The position numbers were made by a program, and so were the translations under genes. From a virus, in the IMG/VR virus record IMGVR_UViG_3300034190_000180, positions 1 through 23,182 of that record: a stretch of 23,182 bases of DNA, one strand, 5' to 3'. Shown one piece after another: positions 3,967 through 19,455 of this stretch. Position 1 is the stretch's first letter; every line of letters starts with the position of its first letter. The notes under the pieces were generated by a model. That model searched no databases, was not told where the DNA came from, and saw nothing but the letters and a program-made list of their open reading frames with translations.

Positions 3967-5190
3967 TTAAGTTATCGTTGCGGATGGTGTCAACGTACCA
4001 GTGATCTCTAAGTCTCCAGCGGCAGTAAGTTTCATCTTGTTTGTGCCAGATGTAGCAAAGTACAAAGACCCACCTGACTCTGTTATAGTCCAGTCACCAA
4101 AGTCTATGGTGGTTACGCCTAGAGTGCCCGTCATGTTGCTTCCGGTTTTTAATACGGAATGCTGGAGAGGTTCGTGCTCATCTTGACCAGTGGCTCTTAC
4201 CATTAACTCGCCTACAGTAGCGTGTGTGTGTACAACAAAAGCTACGGACTGAGCCATGTCTGATGTTGATGCAGGCTCCACGTTTGTGAGACCACCTGTG
4301 GTTACTGGATCAATCCACAAAACGTCTCCATCAGACCATGTCTCGCCATAAGGAGTGCCTGTCGTATCGATATGACGCACTTTACCAAACTGTGTAACTT
4401 TACCGTCTGTTCCGTTAGCAATCTCTTCTGTCGTAATGCCTATTAAGTATTTGGCGTTAGCTTGAACCGAGCCAACCATAGGCGTGACAAGTATTCTGCT
4501 TGAAGCACCTAATGTACCATTTGCCATTACTGGAACGCCTTCTGCTATCGTTACACCTGTGTTGTTCCTAACGTGCACGTGCATCTCTTGTCCCAGTTGT
4601 AGAACTGCACCGTTGTTGACTAAATCAAGTGTTTCTTCATCGACATTCCAAGTCAATTGACCCTGAGTACCGGTACCACCAGTTAGCTGTATCATATCTG
4701 CAGTGAGAGCAGTTACTCCGTCGATAGCGCCTGTCATAGTTCCGCCAGCGAGTGGCAGATACGTAGCTGTTAGAGTAGAAAAGTCATACAAAGCAACAGG
4801 AGTAGATCCAGTATCAGTTGTAGTAGCAAATGGTTCGATGGAATCATTGAATGTAATTTTAGAGTAGTAAACTGTGTCGGTACTTGTAGGGTCAATAGTC
4901 GGAGGAGTTTGAGACCAACCAGCCGTAACACCTGATACTGCCGCCGTAAACCATGTGAACGTTGCTGTAGGGGCAGGAGGAGGTAAGCTCACCGCAGGGT
5001 CAGTGTATAGAGTAACCTCTGCGTAATGAGCTGCGTCAATTCCGTCGGCGCCTGCAAGGCCAGTAGTACCGCCGAGTACTTCGATCTCATTGGATTCCGG
5101 CTTCAACTGAGTGTTGAGGGTCTGGGTTACTTGGTTCATCCAGCTGTCTAGCTCTGGCTTGCCAAGGTAAGGTGGTCTGACTAGTGGCAT
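3967..5190 (-). CDS. Tail fibre-like protein
   Basis: A 407-residue structural protein. It begins MPLVRPPYLGKPELDSWMNQ, followed by a Pro/Thr-rich section (about 60-130), the fibre repeat motif YLPLAGGTMTG (144-154), and a domain with DEETLDLVNNGAVLQLGQEM (184-203), common in phage fibres, where it often precedes a receptor-binding head. A second partial repeat (VLKTGSNMTGTLGVTTI, about 345-361) resembles the first. The C terminus is short and beta-rich (KMKLTAAGDLEITGTL). No hydrolase domain. The start overlaps the nozzle stop as TAATG, so it is co-translated with the nozzle and may attach to it. It is separate from the two spike/fibre genes upstream. Confidence 0.78.
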   Translation of the reverse strand: MPLVRPPYLGKPELDSWMNQVTQTLNTQLKPESNEIEVLGGTTGLAGADGIDAAHYAEVTLYTDPAVSLPPPAPTATFTWFTAAVSGVTAGWSQTPPTIDPTSTDTVYYSKITFNDSIEPFATTTDTGSTPVALYDFSTLTATYLPLAGGTMTGAIDGVTALTADMIQLTGGTGTQGQLTWNVDEETLDLVNNGAVLQLGQEMHVHVRNNTGVTIAEGVPVMANGTLGASSRILVTPMVGSVQANAKYLIGITTEEIANGTDGKVTQFGKVRHIDTTGTPYGETWSDGDVLWIDPVTTGGLTNVEPASTSDMAQSVAFVVHTHATVGELMVRATGQDEHEPLQHSVLKTGSNMTGTLGVTTIDFGDWTITESGGSLYFATSGTNKMKLTAAGDLEITGTLTPSATIT

Positions 5191-6959
5191 TACCTGCGCC
5201 CTCCTCGGTCAACTTCAAATTGCATGTTTGTTAGAGCGAAGCCAGCATCGGCATCTGCAGTATCAGCAGTGTGAGTGATGCGATAGTTTAGGTAACGACC
5301 TTGAGCTCTAAGATCCTGCTTATAGTCGGTAGAGATATCGAAGTCAGAAGTTACCAACTGACGATCTCCAGTAACTGTTGGGTCACGGTCATCACCAGGG
5401 GCATTCGATCCTACGATACTTGTCGCAAACGTTCCGTTACCTTCTACTACATACACAACAGACATTAAAGCGTCTGTCTCAAAGTCAGGAGCTACAGTCA
5501 TACGACGACGCTCAACATAAGATGAGGTAGCGTATCCTGAATCTACAGTCTTAACTGAAGTGCTATCAGTGATTAGTAGATTACCTGTCACACTTGTAAG
5601 AGAAAGAGGTGTAGTTCCGGAACGCTTAGTCCATAGATCTGAGCGGTAGTTGTACACATACATTAGAGCGACACCTGGTTTGTAGAACCACAGTTCATCG
5701 TACTTGTTAAACCGTTGGACTTTATATCCAGTGACGTCACGGAAGTTATTACGAACACGCCCAGCAGCAATGGAGTTAATAGATCCAGGATGACCTGAGA
5801 ACATGTATACATCGTCATCACTGACAACTACATGCTTACCGTCAATCTCCGCCACTGAATCGACAGAGGCAGCACCATAGTGAGTTGTTACTGTAGAGAC
5901 TTGGAATGGGATTTGACTATTGCCAGTCTGTTGAATCGCATGGATAGATGAGTCAGTATAGACATAGAGAATACCCTGAAGTTCTGCCATGTCACGGATT
6001 GTACCTGTGGATGACAGAAGAAACTCGTCAGCAGTGTTAGCACCTAAGTAGAACGGATTCCAATCTTTAGGGATCTGACCTGGAGCAGCTACGTTAGATG
6101 TACGAACTGTACCTACCATAGTGCGTCGGCCGTTCTCAACTAGGTTACCTGCTACAAGCAAGTTACCGTATGCCCGGATCACGCCGCATGTTACATCAAC
6201 AACTGGGTCAGAGATAGTAGCAACAGTGAATGTCGTACCACCAGTCCCAGCGGCGGGCGTGAATGAGAAACCCGTCGCACTTACACCACTGATGACTCCA
6301 ATACCTGTAAGAGTTCCACTAGGCACAATAGTGTACGTAGGCCCTGCTGTCACAGAGATCGTTACAGTTTCCGTTGTGATGGCTTCTGCGGCACTCCTCG
6401 GAGTGCTGGTAACTCGGATTGTAGCACCATCTTCGATAGTGGTTGTGATGCTCCGTGTGTTCCTAGCACCCCGGTGCTTGTATTCGATCTCAGTTGCCTC
6501 AACCGCGTATGAGTCCCAACCAGGCAAAGGAGCTAAGTTAGCTAAGTTATCCTGTAGGAACTGCGGAGTTGTAACTCCATTGTTCAGGATAAAGTGGAAG
6601 CCACCATTGAACTCAGTGTGCTGCCATTCTGCAGAAGCTGAAGTAGTCATAGTTCCGGTAGACACTACAGTGTCACGATCAGAGTTATACACATCAACAG
6701 TTGCTGTGGTGCCCGCTCCATGTACGACAACGTAACGCAAGCCAGCTGGAGAGTTCCATGATGCTACGTACAGAAGATTAGAGACTGCTGGAGTGAACGT
6801 TAACGCTGCTGATTCACCGGGGAATTTACGAACGGCTCCATCGAGGAATCGAACGTTAAGAGCATCGCTAAATGTGTTAGGTGGTAAGGCAGCACTCGGG
6901 GTATCTTCTACCAAACCGAATGCCGCGAGATCACCTACTGGTAGGATTTCAGTGGCCAT
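5190..6959 (-). CDS. Tail nozzle-like protein (beta-propeller, P22 gp10-like role)
   Basis: A 589-residue tail protein, probably the nozzle below the adaptor that closes the DNA channel. It starts MATEILPVGDLAAFGLVEDTP, then LPPNTFSDALNVRFLDGAVRKFPGE, a segment I associate with nozzle/packaged-DNA-stabilisation proteins of short-tailed phages. Repeated short blade-like blocks occur along the chain (FHFILNNGVTTPQFL, GILYVYTDSSIHAI, HVVVSDDDVYMFSG, DELWFYKPGVALMYVYNYRS), as in a beta-propeller. Residues about 190-250 (ATIRVTSTPRS... TFTVATI) look like an inserted Ig-like or fibre-type domain. It is separated from its usual neighbour, the adaptor gene, by fibres, lysis genes and the reductase. 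Start ATG with AGGAG. Assignment is from pattern, not a search. Confidence 0.68.
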   Translation of the reverse strand: MATEILPVGDLAAFGLVEDTPSAALPPNTFSDALNVRFLDGAVRKFPGESAALTFTPAVSNLLYVASWNSPAGLRYVVVHGAGTTATVDVYNSDRDTVVSTGTMTTSASAEWQHTEFNGGFHFILNNGVTTPQFLQDNLANLAPLPGWDSYAVEATEIEYKHRGARNTRSITTTIEDGATIRVTSTPRSAAEAITTETVTISVTAGPTYTIVPSGTLTGIGVISGVSATGFSFTPAAGTGGTTFTVATISDPVVDVTCGVIRAYGNLLVAGNLVENGRRTMVGTVRTSNVAAPGQIPKDWNPFYLGANTADEFLLSSTGTIRDMAELQGILYVYTDSSIHAIQQTGNSQIPFQVSTVTTHYGAASVDSVAEIDGKHVVVSDDDVYMFSGHPGSINSIAAGRVRNNFRDVTGYKVQRFNKYDELWFYKPGVALMYVYNYRSDLWTKRSGTTPLSLTSVTGNLLITDSTSVKTVDSGYATSSYVERRRMTVAPDFETDALMSVVYVVEGNGTFATSIVGSNAPGDDRDPTVTGDRQLVTSDFDISTDYKQDLRAQGRYLNYRITHTADTADADAGFALTNMQFEVDRGGRR

Positions 6960-6980: not shown

Positions 6981-7898
6981 TTAAGAACACTCTCGTTGTC
7001 CTGTGGCTGCGTCGAAGTAGCAAGCTTGAGCTTCCTCTTCTACAACCTCTACTTCTTTCTCAACCTCATTGAGAATACCATAGCGCTTACCGGCCATGCG
7101 GAATGTAGTGCATCCCTTAGAGCCTTCACGCCAAGCAGTCTCATAGACGCTCTTAAACTGCTCATAGGTAACATCGTCGCCTACGTTGATAGTCTTTGAA
7201 CAAGCTGAGTCGATATAGTGCTGTGCCAGTGTAAGGACAGCGAGATGCTCATCTACAGATAGATCGTTAGCTTTACGGCCTTCAACTCCGCGTACATACG
7301 CGTAGTCTTCTACACGCTCAATACGAGGACCATCAAATGTTTGAATGGTACGGTCGTAGTAGTGCGAGAATACGGGCTCAATACCACCAGAGATATTATC
7401 AGCAACAAGCGAGATAGTTCCCGTTGGCGCGATAGATGTCAAGTGAGAGTTACGGATACCGTGCTCACGGATCTCGTTACGAACAGAGGCTGGAAGAGTG
7501 CGGATGAAGTTACCTTTCATGTACTCATCACGATACAAAGGGAATGCTCCCTTCTCTTTAGCCAACCGTGCGGATGCCCGATACGTGTTGTCACGAAGAC
7601 AAGCAAAGAGCTTCTCCATCCATTCCAAGAACTCAGGAGATCCATATGGATAACCAAGCATCTCGCCAGCGTTTGCTAGACCAGTAAAGCCAAGACCCAT
7701 TCGACGCTTGTTACGTGCTTCAGTTGCCTGTTCTTCAAGCGGATAGATTGTACGATCGATTACGTTATCCACAGCGCGCACAACGTGAGGGATGTCTTTC
7801 TTAAGTTGTGTAAAGTTAAATGTGTTGTCGTCACTCACATACTTAGTAGCATTGAATGAACCGAGGAGACATGCTCCGTAAGGCGGTAAGGGTTGTTC
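6981..7898 (-). CDS. Class II ribonucleotide reductase, exon 2
   Basis: Residues 265-569 of the spliced reductase. It begins E265-Q-P-L-P-P-Y-G-A-C-L-L-G-S-F-N, completing the active-site NPCGE motif. Next come MGLGFTGLANAGEML, the phosphate-binding loop PTGTISLVADNISGGIEP (about 422-439), SACSKTIN and the class II signature KGCTTFR (525-531). The C terminus has C557 and C568 (CYFDAATGQRECS), likely the redox pair that re-reduces the active site via thioredoxin-type donors. Translated alone from an internal GTG it would lack the active-site Glu, so it is an exon, not a gene. The total of 569 residues is a compact phage-type reductase. The nozzle gene follows 21 bases after the stop. Confidence 0.92.
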   Translation of the reverse strand, partial: EQPLPPYGACLLGSFNATKYVSDDNTFNFTQLKKDIPHVVRAVDNVIDRTIYPLEEQATEARNKRRMGLGFTGLANAGEMLGYPYGSPEFLEWMEKLFACLRDNTYRASARLAKEKGAFPLYRDEYMKGNFIRTLPASVRNEIREHGIRNSHLTSIAPTGTISLVADNISGGIEPVFSHYYDRTIQTFDGPRIERVEDYAYVRGVEGRKANDLSVDEHLAVLTLAQHYIDSACSKTINVGDDVTYEQFKSVYETAWREGSKGCTTFRMAGKRYGILNEVEKEVEVVEEEAQACYFDAATGQRECS

Positions 7899-7933
7899 CA
7901 GTCATGTTCAACAGAGTTCGTTATGCTCTGCCA

Positions 7934-7941
7934 GTGTAGGT
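7934..7941 (-). repeat. 3' arm of stem enclosing the intron endonuclease gene
   Basis: ACCTACAC (minus strand) complementary to GTGTAGGT at 8356-8349. Just downstream, CAGAG and CTCTG (about 7930-7908) can form a further small stem before the 3' splice site. Confidence 0.6.
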
Positions 7942-7945
7942 ATCG

Positions 7946-8326
7946 TTAGTTTATGTGTTCTTTGTTTGAGAATGTTTTGAGAGCGTGGCAATTTGCGCAT
8001 AGCACATCACACTTATCAATCTCCGCAAGGATCCGAACTCGGCTCCATGAGGGCTCGTACGCTCTACCGTTCCCATTTTTGGTCTTGGATGATGGATCTC
8101 GATGATCCAGTTGAAGTTGTGCTGGTATCACTGCTTTGAAGTCACAGTGTTTACAACCTTCTTTCATCTTGAATTCACCAACCCATCGTCGGGATTTAGC
8201 GCGATATTCTCTCGTCTTAGCGACGTCACATATTTTACAGCGAACGTTTTTGTCTTTACGCTTGCCGCCTCTATTACCAAACTCAGCAATAGGTTTAGTT
8301 TCTTTACAATCGATACATTGTTTCAT
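7946..8326 (-). CDS. Intron-encoded HNH homing endonuclease
   Basis: A 126-residue nuclease expected to cut intron-free alleles of the reductase gene and so spread the intron. The ATG at 8326 was chosen because GGAG lies eight bases upstream; a GTG at 8350 has no such site. Residues C4/C7 and C30/C33 form a zinc ribbon (CIDC...CKIC). C58/C61 (CKHC) begin the HNH domain, with LDHRDP (D74-H75) and the block CDVLCANCHALKT (C110, N112, C113, H114). The C-terminal NKEHIN ends 47 bases before the 3' splice site. Catalytic His and Asn are intact, so the protein looks active. Specificity for the N-P-C-G/E target is inference from location. Confidence 0.9.
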   Translation of the reverse strand: MKQCIDCKETKPIAEFGNRGGKRKDKNVRCKICDVAKTREYRAKSRRWVGEFKMKEGCKHCDFKAVIPAQLQLDHRDPSSKTKNGNGRAYEPSWSRVRILAEIDKCDVLCANCHALKTFSNKEHIN

Positions 8327-8348
8327 ATTGTGTTCTCCAAGTGGAGAC

Positions 8349-8356
8349 ACCTACAC
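8349..8356 (-). repeat. 5' arm of stem enclosing the intron endonuclease gene
   Basis: GTGTAGGT here (minus strand) is perfectly complementary to ACCTACAC at 7941-7934. Together they would close a stem that loops the endonuclease gene out of the folded intron, a common arrangement for group I introns carrying homing endonucleases. Confidence 0.6.
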
Positions 8357-8555
8357 ATCTATATGTTTCCATATAGCTCAGACTATATCTTCAATCCTTT
8401 CGGATGCTCTGCGCTTCCAGCCACTTGGCTGTACTTCCTTGCGGAATAGTCGTTGCACGTTCCCTGTTAAGGGCTTCGCTCAGGATTGTCTTCGTCACTA
8501 CACGGTCAGAGTTTCCCTGAATTCACAGAGTGTTTTACTTGAGGCAATTATGTCT

Positions 8556-9347
8556 ACCACAAGGATTGGTCGCTGCAATCTCTTCACAATAATATAAGTT
8601 GTTCATCTCTTGGATGCGATCAATAAATAGGACGCCAGGCTCTGCCCAGTCCCAAGTATTTTGCATAATGATGTCCCACAACTCACGAGCTTTCACTGTA
8701 TCAAATACGATACCTTCAAATACCAGATCGAATGAGTCATCTTCTTTCGTCAGTGCTTGCATGAACTTGTCTGTGATGCCTACACTTACGTTGAAGCCAG
8801 TCAGTACATGAGAGTTAGACTTAGCTTTAATAAACTCAGCGATATCAGGATGGTCAACCCGCAGCACACCCATCTGAGCGCCTCGGCGGTGTCCTGATGA
8901 GGAGATGGTTTGACATACAGCATCAAAGATACCCATAAAAGAAACAGGACCAGAGGCAGATGAATCAAGAGATAGGATTGACTTACCGCGTGGACGGATC
9001 TTAGAGAAGTCGTAGCCAATACCACCACCTCTTCGCATAGTCTCAGCAGCTTCAGAAGCCTTCTCCATAATGGAGTGCATACTATCTTCAATCTCACCAG
9101 ATACAAAGCAGTTGAAGCTTGTCACTACCTTCTTCCCACCCATTGATGCTTGGACACGGCCAGCAGGCAGAAACCTCATTTCCCCAAAGATGTCTTCAAG
9201 GTCTAAACGGTGATCTTCACCATCACTCATAGAATCAGCTAGTCGCTTAATCTTATCGTGGAATGTCTCACCCTCTTGCCGATACTTCATAGCATCGATC
9301 TCTTGAGAGAGTGGTGTTGTCGGGCCTTCATAGATTCTATTGTCCAC
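8556..9347 (-). CDS. Class II ribonucleotide reductase, exon 1
   Basis: First 264 codons of the B12-dependent ribonucleotide reductase, which reduces ribonucleotides to deoxyribonucleotides for phage DNA synthesis. Seen: the redox-active cysteine C80 in SFNCFVSG, the class II block FDAVCQTISSSGHRRGAQMG (141-160), the FNVSVGITDKFM segment (185-195), and N261-P-C263-G at the end, which are the active-site Asn and thiyl-radical Cys. The active-site Glu is the first codon of exon 2. Without splicing the frame runs six codons into the intron and stops. Start is GTG at 9347 with GAGG eight bases upstream; no better ATG exists. It follows the hairpin after the lysis cassette. Class II assignment is by motif, and no small (NrdB/NrdF-type) subunit gene is seen in the window. 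Confidence 0.92.
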
Positions 9348-17548: not shown

Positions 17549-17776
17549 TTAGATCGTGTGCTTTACAAAGCGACCAGTCTTACCGACGTGTCCGAATTGA
17601 GCATCTGCGATCGCAGTCTCAGTAGTGCCTTGCACGTAGAAAGCTGTGCTGATTGAATAACCGTCGCCATTGGCGATGACTTTCCATACGCACTTATCTG
17701 CTGGTACTGTGAACACGTCAGTTACGAGGTTTGTACCAAATGTGTTAATGGGGAATGTTCCTTGGATTACATACAT
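17549..17776 (-). CDS. Small beta-rich unknown protein after capsid terminator
   Basis: A 75-residue protein dominated by alternating hydrophobic and polar residues (MYVIQGTFPINTFGTNLV... KCVWKVIANGDGYSI), suggesting a small all-beta fold. No signal peptide or membrane helix. ATG start with an AGGAG ribosome site 7 bases upstream. It is the first gene after the terminator in the minus-strand block. Size, predicted beta content and position next to the capsid gene are compatible with a head decoration or fibre-associated protein, but I recognise no family. Confidence 0.7.
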   Translation of the reverse strand: MYVIQGTFPINTFGTNLVTDVFTVPADKCVWKVIANGDGYSISTAFYVQGTTETAIADAQFGHVGKTGRFVKHTI

Positions 17777-17796: not shown

Positions 17797-17837
17797 GAAA
17801 TAAAATAGGGGAGAAGGAGAAAACTCTCCCTCTCCCC
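17797..17837 (-). terminator. Intrinsic terminator after capsid/HNH genes
   Basis: Read on the minus strand, 17837 to 17808 forms a 13-bp stem (GGGGAGAGGGAGA with TCTCCTTCTCCCC, one G.U wobble) around a GTTT loop, followed by TATTTTATTT (17807-17798). The same bases on the plus strand give an A.C mismatch and no T tract, so the signal is directional and agrees with transcription of the flanking genes. It ends the portal-to-capsid block and leaves the next genes to read-through or a separate promoter. Confidence 0.88.
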
Positions 17838-17840
17838 AGA

Positions 17841-17854
17841 GGTCTAATTAGACC
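17841..17854. repeat. 14-bp perfect palindrome
   Basis: GGTCTAATTAGACC is its own reverse complement and sits between the HNH stop codon and the terminator hairpin. Too short for a terminator alone. It could be a protein-binding site, an extra RNA stem, or chance. Confidence 0.5.
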
Positions 17855-17857
17855 AAA

Positions 17858-18301
17858 CTATTGTCCGTGTTCTTGTAGGTAGTTCAGCATGCTTGTAAGT
17901 ATCTCTTGATCATCGTTTATGAGACCAAGAGACACATTACAGTTATGACAAAGAACCCCTCGCACCTTACCACTCACGTGGCAATGGTCAACAACCGCTC
18001 TACGACTATCTCCGTTGTTACGATCTGTGCCAGTTCCTTGAATCTTAGTAAAGACTACAGGAGTGTCACATACCTTGCAACAGTGATCTTGTTCGTTGAG
18101 CATGTCATTGCGATCAGTCATGGTTATTCCGTACCGCTTACGCAACTCCTTACAGGGGTTACAAGTGAGACTACGGGAATTACTTTTGACCATCCGCCCA
18201 CAGACGTCGTACTCAGAACATTTACGTTCCTGCTTTGACTGCTGTGATGCGTAGAGAGCCTTATGGTAATCTCTACGCTTTTGAGGATCTTTGTATGGCA
18301 T
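17858..18301 (-). CDS. Free-standing HNH endonuclease, endonuclease VII type
   Basis: A 147-residue nuclease of the recombination endonuclease VII / HNH group. Metal-site residues are readable: C28, C34, C47 and C50 in the N-terminal half, C75 and C78, then VVDHCH with D105-H106 and H108, and C118-C121-N122 in the block RGVLCHNCNVSLG, the endonuclease VII hallmark. The N terminus is basic (MPYKDPQKRRDYHKAL), typical of phage HNH proteins. It lies between the capsid gene (20 bases away) and the terminator, so it shares the capsid transcript. Endonuclease VII proper resolves branched DNA during packaging. Similar small free-standing HNH genes often behave as mobile homing nucleases nicking a neighbouring conserved gene. 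Sequence alone does not separate these roles. Start ATG has a GGCGG-type ribosome site. Confidence 0.85.
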   Translation of the reverse strand: MPYKDPQKRRDYHKALYASQQSKQERKCSEYDVCGRMVKSNSRSLTCNPCKELRKRYGITMTDRNDMLNEQDHCCKVCDTPVVFTKIQGTGTDRNNGDSRRAVVDHCHVSGKVRGVLCHNCNVSLGLINDDQEILTSMLNYLQEHGQ

Positions 18302-18321
18302 ACTTTACCGCCTATTTTTAG

Positions 18322-19455
18322 TTACACGAGATTGTAGATAGCGCCACAGCCTTTAGGGTTCTTAACCTCAAGTGTGCACTCTTCTACGAACATGCCTGCA
18401 GTAGAGTCACCCTTCTGGCCGACTTCAACTTCCTGCATAGGACGCAAGGTAGCAACTGCGAACCACATTGGATCATAGATCAATGCGGAGGAGTTACCCC
18501 AATCAGCTGCGTTACCAGCACCACCGCCGAACAGACCAACTGCTGGTGCGTTCAGACCCATGATGTAGTTAGGAACAACCATCAGCTCACCGAAGTCAGA
18601 CATGTAGATGTCTACGGACTGACGAAGTGTGCCGTCTGCATCGATGTTACGACGAACGTTAGTCTCAGTCTGCATCAAGTCAGAGAAGTCACGACGAAGC
18701 TTTGGAGACAGCATGATCTTAGATGCCTTGCCGCCTTCTTCGTAGATACCCTGCATGATTGCGTCAACGTCGGACAGAGCCAACGCGCCACGAGAAGATT
18801 CGTTGGCCAGAGTGATAACACCAGTACCATCGGAAGAACCAGCAGTAACAGAACCACCAGTACCAGCGAAGGAAACAGTAGAGCTATCGTTGATGAACGC
18901 CTGGTATCCGCCCATGGTGCGAGCACCGGGGTTGCCGGATGTGCCAGCAGCGTTAGAAACGTTACCTGTGTTTACGATATCATGCTCGATGTCACGGCGC
19001 ATTTCTGTGCCACGCTTCTTAAGCTGATAAGCGTACTCATCTGCAACACCAGCTTGGTCAACAGCACGACGTGTACCAGATACGGCGATTGTCTTACCAT
19101 TGATCTGTGTGTAGTTGCCGAGACGTGTACGAGTAGCACCACCGACGGCGAATACTGCGCCAACAGTTGGAGTTACTGTAGGAGATACGTCTGCCAAACC
19201 GCTACCATCAGGAGCAACATAGTCTTGGCCTTCACCAATCCGCGAGTCACCTGGTGTGTTCAGCTCGTCAGTCTGCCATTCGTGGTAGATTGCTTTAGCT
19301 TTTGTTTTGCCAATCGAAGACAAGAACGGAGTCTCGTCGCGAGTGATCATTGTGATGAAGTTTGCGAGGTCCTCACGCTGAGAAACGTCTGCGCCTGTAC
19401 CACGTACCGGGCCTCCTGGGCCGCCTGTACCGCGTCCACCAATTGTAGTAGTCAT
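18322..19455 (-). CDS. Major capsid protein (SU10-type/DUF5309-like)
   Basis: Main shell protein, 377 residues. The N terminus is Gly/Thr-rich, followed by the signature block ANFITMITRDETPFLSSIGK and YHEWQTDEL (residues about 31-66), which I recognise from the phage SU10-type (DUF5309) major capsid family with the HK97 fold. The Gly/Ser/Thr-rich middle (about 165-215) fits an extended loop, and the SKIMLSPKLRRDFSDLMQ segment fits the spine/A-domain region of that family. Length is normal. It follows the scaffold gene by 20 bases, with a strong AGGAG ribosome site 9 bases before the ATG. An HNH gene and then a strong terminator (17808-17837) follow. The terminator probably limits read-through from this highly expressed gene; that is inference. 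Confidence 0.92.
   Translation of the reverse strand: MTTTIGGRGTGGPGGPVRGTGADVSQREDLANFITMITRDETPFLSSIGKTKAKAIYHEWQTDELNTPGDSRIGEGQDYVAPDGSGLADVSPTVTPTVGAVFAVGGATRTRLGNYTQINGKTIAVSGTRRAVDQAGVADEYAYQLKKRGTEMRRDIEHDIVNTGNVSNAAGTSGNPGARTMGGYQAFINDSSTVSFAGTGGSVTAGSSDGTGVITLANESSRGALALSDVDAIMQGIYEEGGKASKIMLSPKLRRDFSDLMQTETNVRRNIDADGTLRQSVDIYMSDFGELMVVPNYIMGLNAPAVGLFGGGAGNAADWGNSSALIYDPMWFAVATLRPMQEVEVGQKGDSTAGMFVEECTLEVKNPKGCGAIYNLV

Follow-up and report, generated by a model that had tools for sequence, protein, structure and literature searches.

Our analysis of a stretch of viral DNA of 23,182 nucleotides (hereafter the window) indicates that the nuclease gene found at the 3' end of its major capsid protein (MCP) gene encodes a free-standing DHHRN-type homing endonuclease (the Endonuclease VII-motif, F-CphI type) and that, in this SU10-like phage, it is lodged in the final codons of the capsid gene, a reading to which we assign a probability of about 0.86. 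The first-pass annotation of this DNA had offered two possibilities, a mobile nuclease targeting a neighbouring conserved gene or a resolvase used in packaging. The former is now supported by empty sites in the nearest relatives, by synonymous divergence that points to transfer and by the homing-type DHHRN architecture of the protein; the latter is not, as the protein has no equivalent of the C-terminal portion of T4 endonuclease VII and the gene is missing from nearly all capsid relatives. Genes with the Endonuclease VII motif are usually annotated "endonuclease VII" and taken for resolvases; for one of them, this locus offers a clean pair of occupied and empty sites. Its junctions predict a testable target and also show how an intron-less nuclease gene can enter an essential capsid coding sequence while the protein remains unchanged.

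The gene that hosts the insertion (18322..19455, minus strand) encodes an SU10-type MCP (PF17236, SU10_MCP, E=2.1e-72; phrog_1328), and the portal protein of this phage also belongs to an SU10 family in Pfam. The phage is therefore SU10-like by capsid and portal, not T7-like, and the earlier comparison of this slot with that of T7-like phages was mistaken and does not apply. By capsid, the nearest cultured phage is Roseobacter phage CRP-7 (56.8% identical). Directly past the terminator, a gene of 75 amino acids (17549-17776, minus strand) is unusually variable, being only about 61% identical to its counterpart in L002, the nearest relative, when the flanking genes are 95-98% identical.

Based on sequence and folding, the capsid transcript would end at an intrinsic terminator with a 13-pair stem and the U-rich tail TATTTTATTT (17808..17837, minus strand), in a region that folds at z=-4.7 compared with shuffles. 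Just before it lies the palindrome GGTCTAATTAGACC (17841..17854, minus strand), a small hairpin that holds the MCP stop in the alleles devoid of the nuclease (empty alleles). In the five closest contigs (L002-L006, MCP 96-98% identical in amino acids), which represent three haplotypes (L002; L003/L004/L006; L005), all alleles are empty and read ...GGCGCTATCTAT AAC TTG GTC TAA (T/A)TAGACC, with the terminator directly past the capsid stop. As this stop is situated inside the small hairpin immediately before the terminator, there is no free gap at the capsid 3' end, so that an insert keeping both hairpins must enter the coding sequence.

This is the arrangement that we found in the window, which reads ...GGCGCTATCTAC AAT / CTC GTG TAA CTAAAAATAGGCGGTAAAGT ATG...nuclease...TAG T / TTGGTCTAATTAGACC, followed by the same terminator. 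The inserted block of 474 bp (17857..18330, minus strand) is absent from L002-L006 and present in L007; it lies between the MCP codons N (AAT) and L (TTG), three codons inside the end of the gene, and joining its flanks restores ...AIYNLV-stop. It brings a replacement tail for the capsid gene, CTC GTG TAA (L-V-stop; 18322..18330, minus strand), where the empty alleles have TTG GTC TAA, then the Shine-Dalgarno-like AGGCGG (18308..18313, minus strand, by direct reading), 6 nt ahead of the nuclease ATG, and finally the nuclease gene itself (17858..18301, minus strand). Past the nuclease stop, the displaced original tail TTGGTCTAA (17848..17856, minus strand) has exactly the sequence with which the MCP gene ends in the empty alleles. 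The alignment of these alleles shows a synonymous replacement of the final L-V-stop of the window capsid gene, the old tail and the terminator remaining intact behind it. L007 has the same arrangement with L-T-stop as the capsid ending. The first-pass annotation had described an Endonuclease VII-type gene between the capsid stop and its terminator; the gene, its domain and the terminator were all confirmed, but the position has to be revised, since relative to the empty sites the block sits within the last three MCP codons. A search of the viral contigs for a donor of the left end of the insert, using an 18-mer, returned two contigs only, the already known L126 (the full contig of L007) and L191, whose context is without a capsid gene and which we took for a chance match. 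The pattern TTGGTCTAAWTAGACC occurs in 29 viral-contig stretches, six of them with a capsid gene (L002, L126, L134, L141, L142, L146), and the other 23 gave no match to capsid or nuclease.

The exact restoration of ...IYNLV* by the joined flanks is also what one would expect if the block were an intron or another spliced element of the capsid gene. We rejected this reading, whose probability we regard as close to nil: the unspliced MCP is complete and already ends L-V-stop, and the nuclease ORF takes up all but 30 nt of the 474. Group I introns have a U at the exon end together with a G at the intron end, which the ends of the block do not fit. The sole group I intron match in the window (RF00028, 8595-8359, E=2.4e-21) splits the ribonucleotide reductase gene (6981-9347, minus strand), where an HNH ORF is located at 8350-7946 and the exon break adjoins the conserved NPCG motif. 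An interruption near the NPC motif occurs in the reductase gene of CRP-7 (L001 19937-22555) as well, where another ORF (gp45) occupies the gap; no tblastn match was obtained between the CRP-7 and window reductases.

The first-pass annotation had suggested looking for an empty site in relatives, and the outcome of this comparison was clear. Taking the best 80 of 523 viral-contig stretches matching the capsid, we scored the DNA past the capsid stop in all 80: in 76, many of which look like near-duplicates and therefore represent fewer than 76 independent lineages, a terminator-like hairpin begins 4-10 nt past the MCP stop and there is no block. One relative, L007, is occupied, with the nuclease present and no hairpin within 110 nt of the MCP stop, and the remaining three are cut off (L008 and L029 lack the stop, and L028 ends 2 nt past it); L007 and L008 (99.8%) represent almost one and the same phage. 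The MCP 3' end of CRP-7 is empty too. Among the loci compared, capsid and nuclease share a contig only in the window and in the L007/L082/L126 contig, which gives two occupied genomes in this analysis, both metagenomic virus contigs. At the sequence level, these comparisons show that the block is optional within the clade. In principle, the block could instead be ancestral and have been lost precisely from the relatives, through recombination with an empty phage. We consider this highly unlikely, because the empty relatives include all the scorable deeper ones as well as CRP-7, and because synonymous divergence indicates recent transfer rather than shared descent.

Between the window and L126, dS (Nei-Gojobori) is 0.24 for the nuclease, as compared to 1.32 for the MCP and 0.90 for the scaffold, and is saturated for the portal, the adaptor and two small genes (tail-side genes are saturated). 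Using Fisher tests on rounded synonymous counts, the nuclease differs from the MCP with p=1.4e-12 and from the scaffold with p=5.8e-8. In addition, the window and L007/L126 share an identical run of 258 bp (17840..18097, minus strand), which extends from the 3' part of the nuclease gene across the right border and up to the terminator edge. Within the nuclease, pS is 0.36 over the first 50 codons and 0.13 over the remainder. Co-conversion of the MCP flank is not visible between the window and L126, codons 301-375 having a pS of 0.72. The nuclease being far less diverged than the capsid gene, and sharing this identical run, we conclude that it moved sideways; the comparison shows that the block has been transferred between diverged phages.

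The nuclease (147 amino acids) matches Endonuclease_7 of Pfam (PF02945, E=2.7e-17, 62.9 bits against a cut-off of 23.6) and the endonuclease VII families of PHROGs (best 1.1e-26). Its catalytic domain, placed by the Pfam range and alignments at residues 52-143 (17873..18148, minus strand), contains D105, H106, H108, R114 and N122, which align with F-CphI and T4 endonuclease VII, as do the zinc cysteines C75-C78 and C118-C121 (CX2-4C / CX2C ligands). In pairwise scores, F-CphI is the closer of the two (36% identity over 94 positions, E=2e-19, against a weaker E=1e-5 for T4 endonuclease VII). A profile built from 23 nuclease relatives gave Hpy99I as the best PDB match (E=1.9e-16), followed by T4 endonuclease VII (E=1.6e-11). 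The AlphaFold model has a mean pLDDT of 75.9 with a weak middle part, and its only high-probability Foldseek neighbours are again Hpy99I (E=2.8e-3) and T4 endonuclease VII (probability 1.00, E of about 0.01-0.03), no Foldseek match reaching E<=0.001. Four N-terminal cysteines (C28, C34, C47, C50) have the look of another zinc site, but the model is poor in that region. The N-terminal start MPYKDPQK recurs in other nuclease-like proteins (L121 5001-5639, L110, L117), in L121 apparently ahead of a different domain, which suggests a shared, exchangeable N-terminal module.

The same catalytic motif, together with a late, capsid-linked gene position, is compatible with a phage Holliday-junction resolvase that would debranch DNA before packaging, like T4 gp49. 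Several observations make this explanation very improbable. The profile match to T4 endonuclease VII covers its residues 6-71 of 157 only, and residues of about 72-157, which form the C-terminal dimer part of the T4 enzyme, have no counterpart. The gene is missing in 76 of the 80 capsid relatives, three more being unscorable, and it has moved sideways. Finally, the DHHRN motif of the window protein is C-terminal, as in F-CphI; according to PMC6083498, this motif is mostly C-terminal in the endonuclease clade and mostly N-terminal in the resolvase clade.

We also compared the genomic surroundings of nuclease relatives. By tblastn, 679 phage records match the nuclease, all below 60% identity, and in the eight records that we examined out of 60 listed, the relatives adjoin genes for tail, internal virion, DNA-injection, exonuclease, RNA-polymerase or unknown functions; in one of these eight, Pectobacterium phage Jarilo, the relative lies between two parts of a DNA polymerase gene. 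In bacterial genomes, two loci carry relatives that are 36-38% identical. A PHROGs scan of 20 neighbour ORFs in the viral contigs left five without a match and assigned 15, to families of connector, tail, helicase, exonuclease and phosphoesterase proteins, to a major head protein (L182), to large terminases (four, one of them weak) and to one family without a known function. This scatter fits mobile genes. The large terminases next to distant relatives (L174, L179, L183 and, weakly, L186) speak for the resolvase and are the sole hint of packaging. Genes of HNH packaging nucleases adjoin terminase genes; the window nuclease is not in such a position, as the capsid, scaffold and portal genes separate it from that end of the window. 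At L182 (3836-6083), the gene that immediately follows a nuclease relative encodes a different major head protein (phrog_777), and L119 harbours two Endonuclease VII-motif ORFs (1495-1974 and 4848-5255) in one stretch of 5.5 kb.

Returning to the homing reading, we infer the following sequence of events. The nuclease would be translated from the capsid mRNA, ahead of the terminator. During a mixed infection, it would nick or cut an empty allele at the 3' end of the MCP gene or close to it, and repair of the break off the occupied genome would copy the block into that allele. The carrier's own DNA would be protected because the insertion splits ...CTATCTATAAC/TTGGTCTAA.... Over the last 170 nt of the MCP before the insertion, no base is common to the window and L007 against all five empty alleles, which leaves the insertion as the sole possible mark of a carrier there. 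The nearest such bases are MCP nt 952 and 954, with 12 more downstream, and these two, or such sites further upstream or downstream, may also give immunity. As described in PMC2988022, the free-standing homing endonucleases of T4 cleave DNA hundreds or thousands of bp away from where they are inserted; the cut of the window nuclease may thus lie elsewhere, and although the simplest reading is that the junction confers immunity, it is not the sole one.

A variant of the homing reading is that the enzyme recognizes a structure, the palindrome and the terminator hairpin being extruded as a cruciform that an Endonuclease VII-type core would cut. The insertion point is indeed close to both, at 2 nt for the palindrome and about 20 nt for the 13-pair inverted repeat. 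We nevertheless hold this variant to be improbable: palindrome and terminator are intact in both carriers, which would therefore not be immune, the palindrome is imperfect in L003-L006 (GGTCTAAATAGACC), and F-CphI is sequence-specific according to PMC6083498.

We tentatively propose, at somewhat less than even odds, a self-mending homing element: an intron-free nuclease aimed at the last capsid codons, whose insert rewrites those codons and the stop and would thereby mend the broken gene, destroy its own recognition site and keep the double-hairpin 3' end. In the open-access PMC literature (subscription papers not covered), no report was evident in which a free-standing homing gene replaces the final codons of the gene that hosts it.

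The general kind is already known, as DHHRN homing endonucleases, free-standing homing genes and T4 SegD beside a capsid gene have all been described; it is the junction that is unusual here. Homing genes are common near capsid and other essential genes, as stated in PMC10448857. The DHHRN homing family has F-CphI of cyanophage S-PM2 as its type member (PMC6083498). Both F-CphI and the window nuclease have the D/H/H/R/N residues at the C-terminus and a short N-terminal region with cysteines, and both are encoded by free-standing genes directly downstream of a conserved gene. However, F-CphI adjoins psbA, which contains a group I intron (collaborative homing), whereas the window capsid gene is intron-free, the single Rfam match in the window being the one in the reductase gene (8359-8595); moreover, the window insert lies inside the last codons of its host gene and replaces them. 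With T4 endonuclease VII (gp49), the window nuclease shares the zinc-bound core (gp49 residues 6-71) and differs by the lack of residues 72-157, the C-terminal motif and the optional nature of the gene. The Endonuclease VII-motif restriction enzyme Hpy99I is its best PDB match by profile and by fold, but the window nuclease is a phage gene with empty sites, and no neighbour gene matched a methylase in Pfam or PHROGs. For the T4-like phages, the comparison relies on PMC2988022. SegD of T4 is located between the major capsid gene 23 and gene 24, yet it is a GIY-YIG enzyme, encoded antisense, whose activity is given there as not established. MobE of Aeh1 and MobA of T4 are, like the window nuclease, inserted into coding sequence; those insertions split their genes, whereas the window capsid gene is kept whole by its built-in replacement tail.
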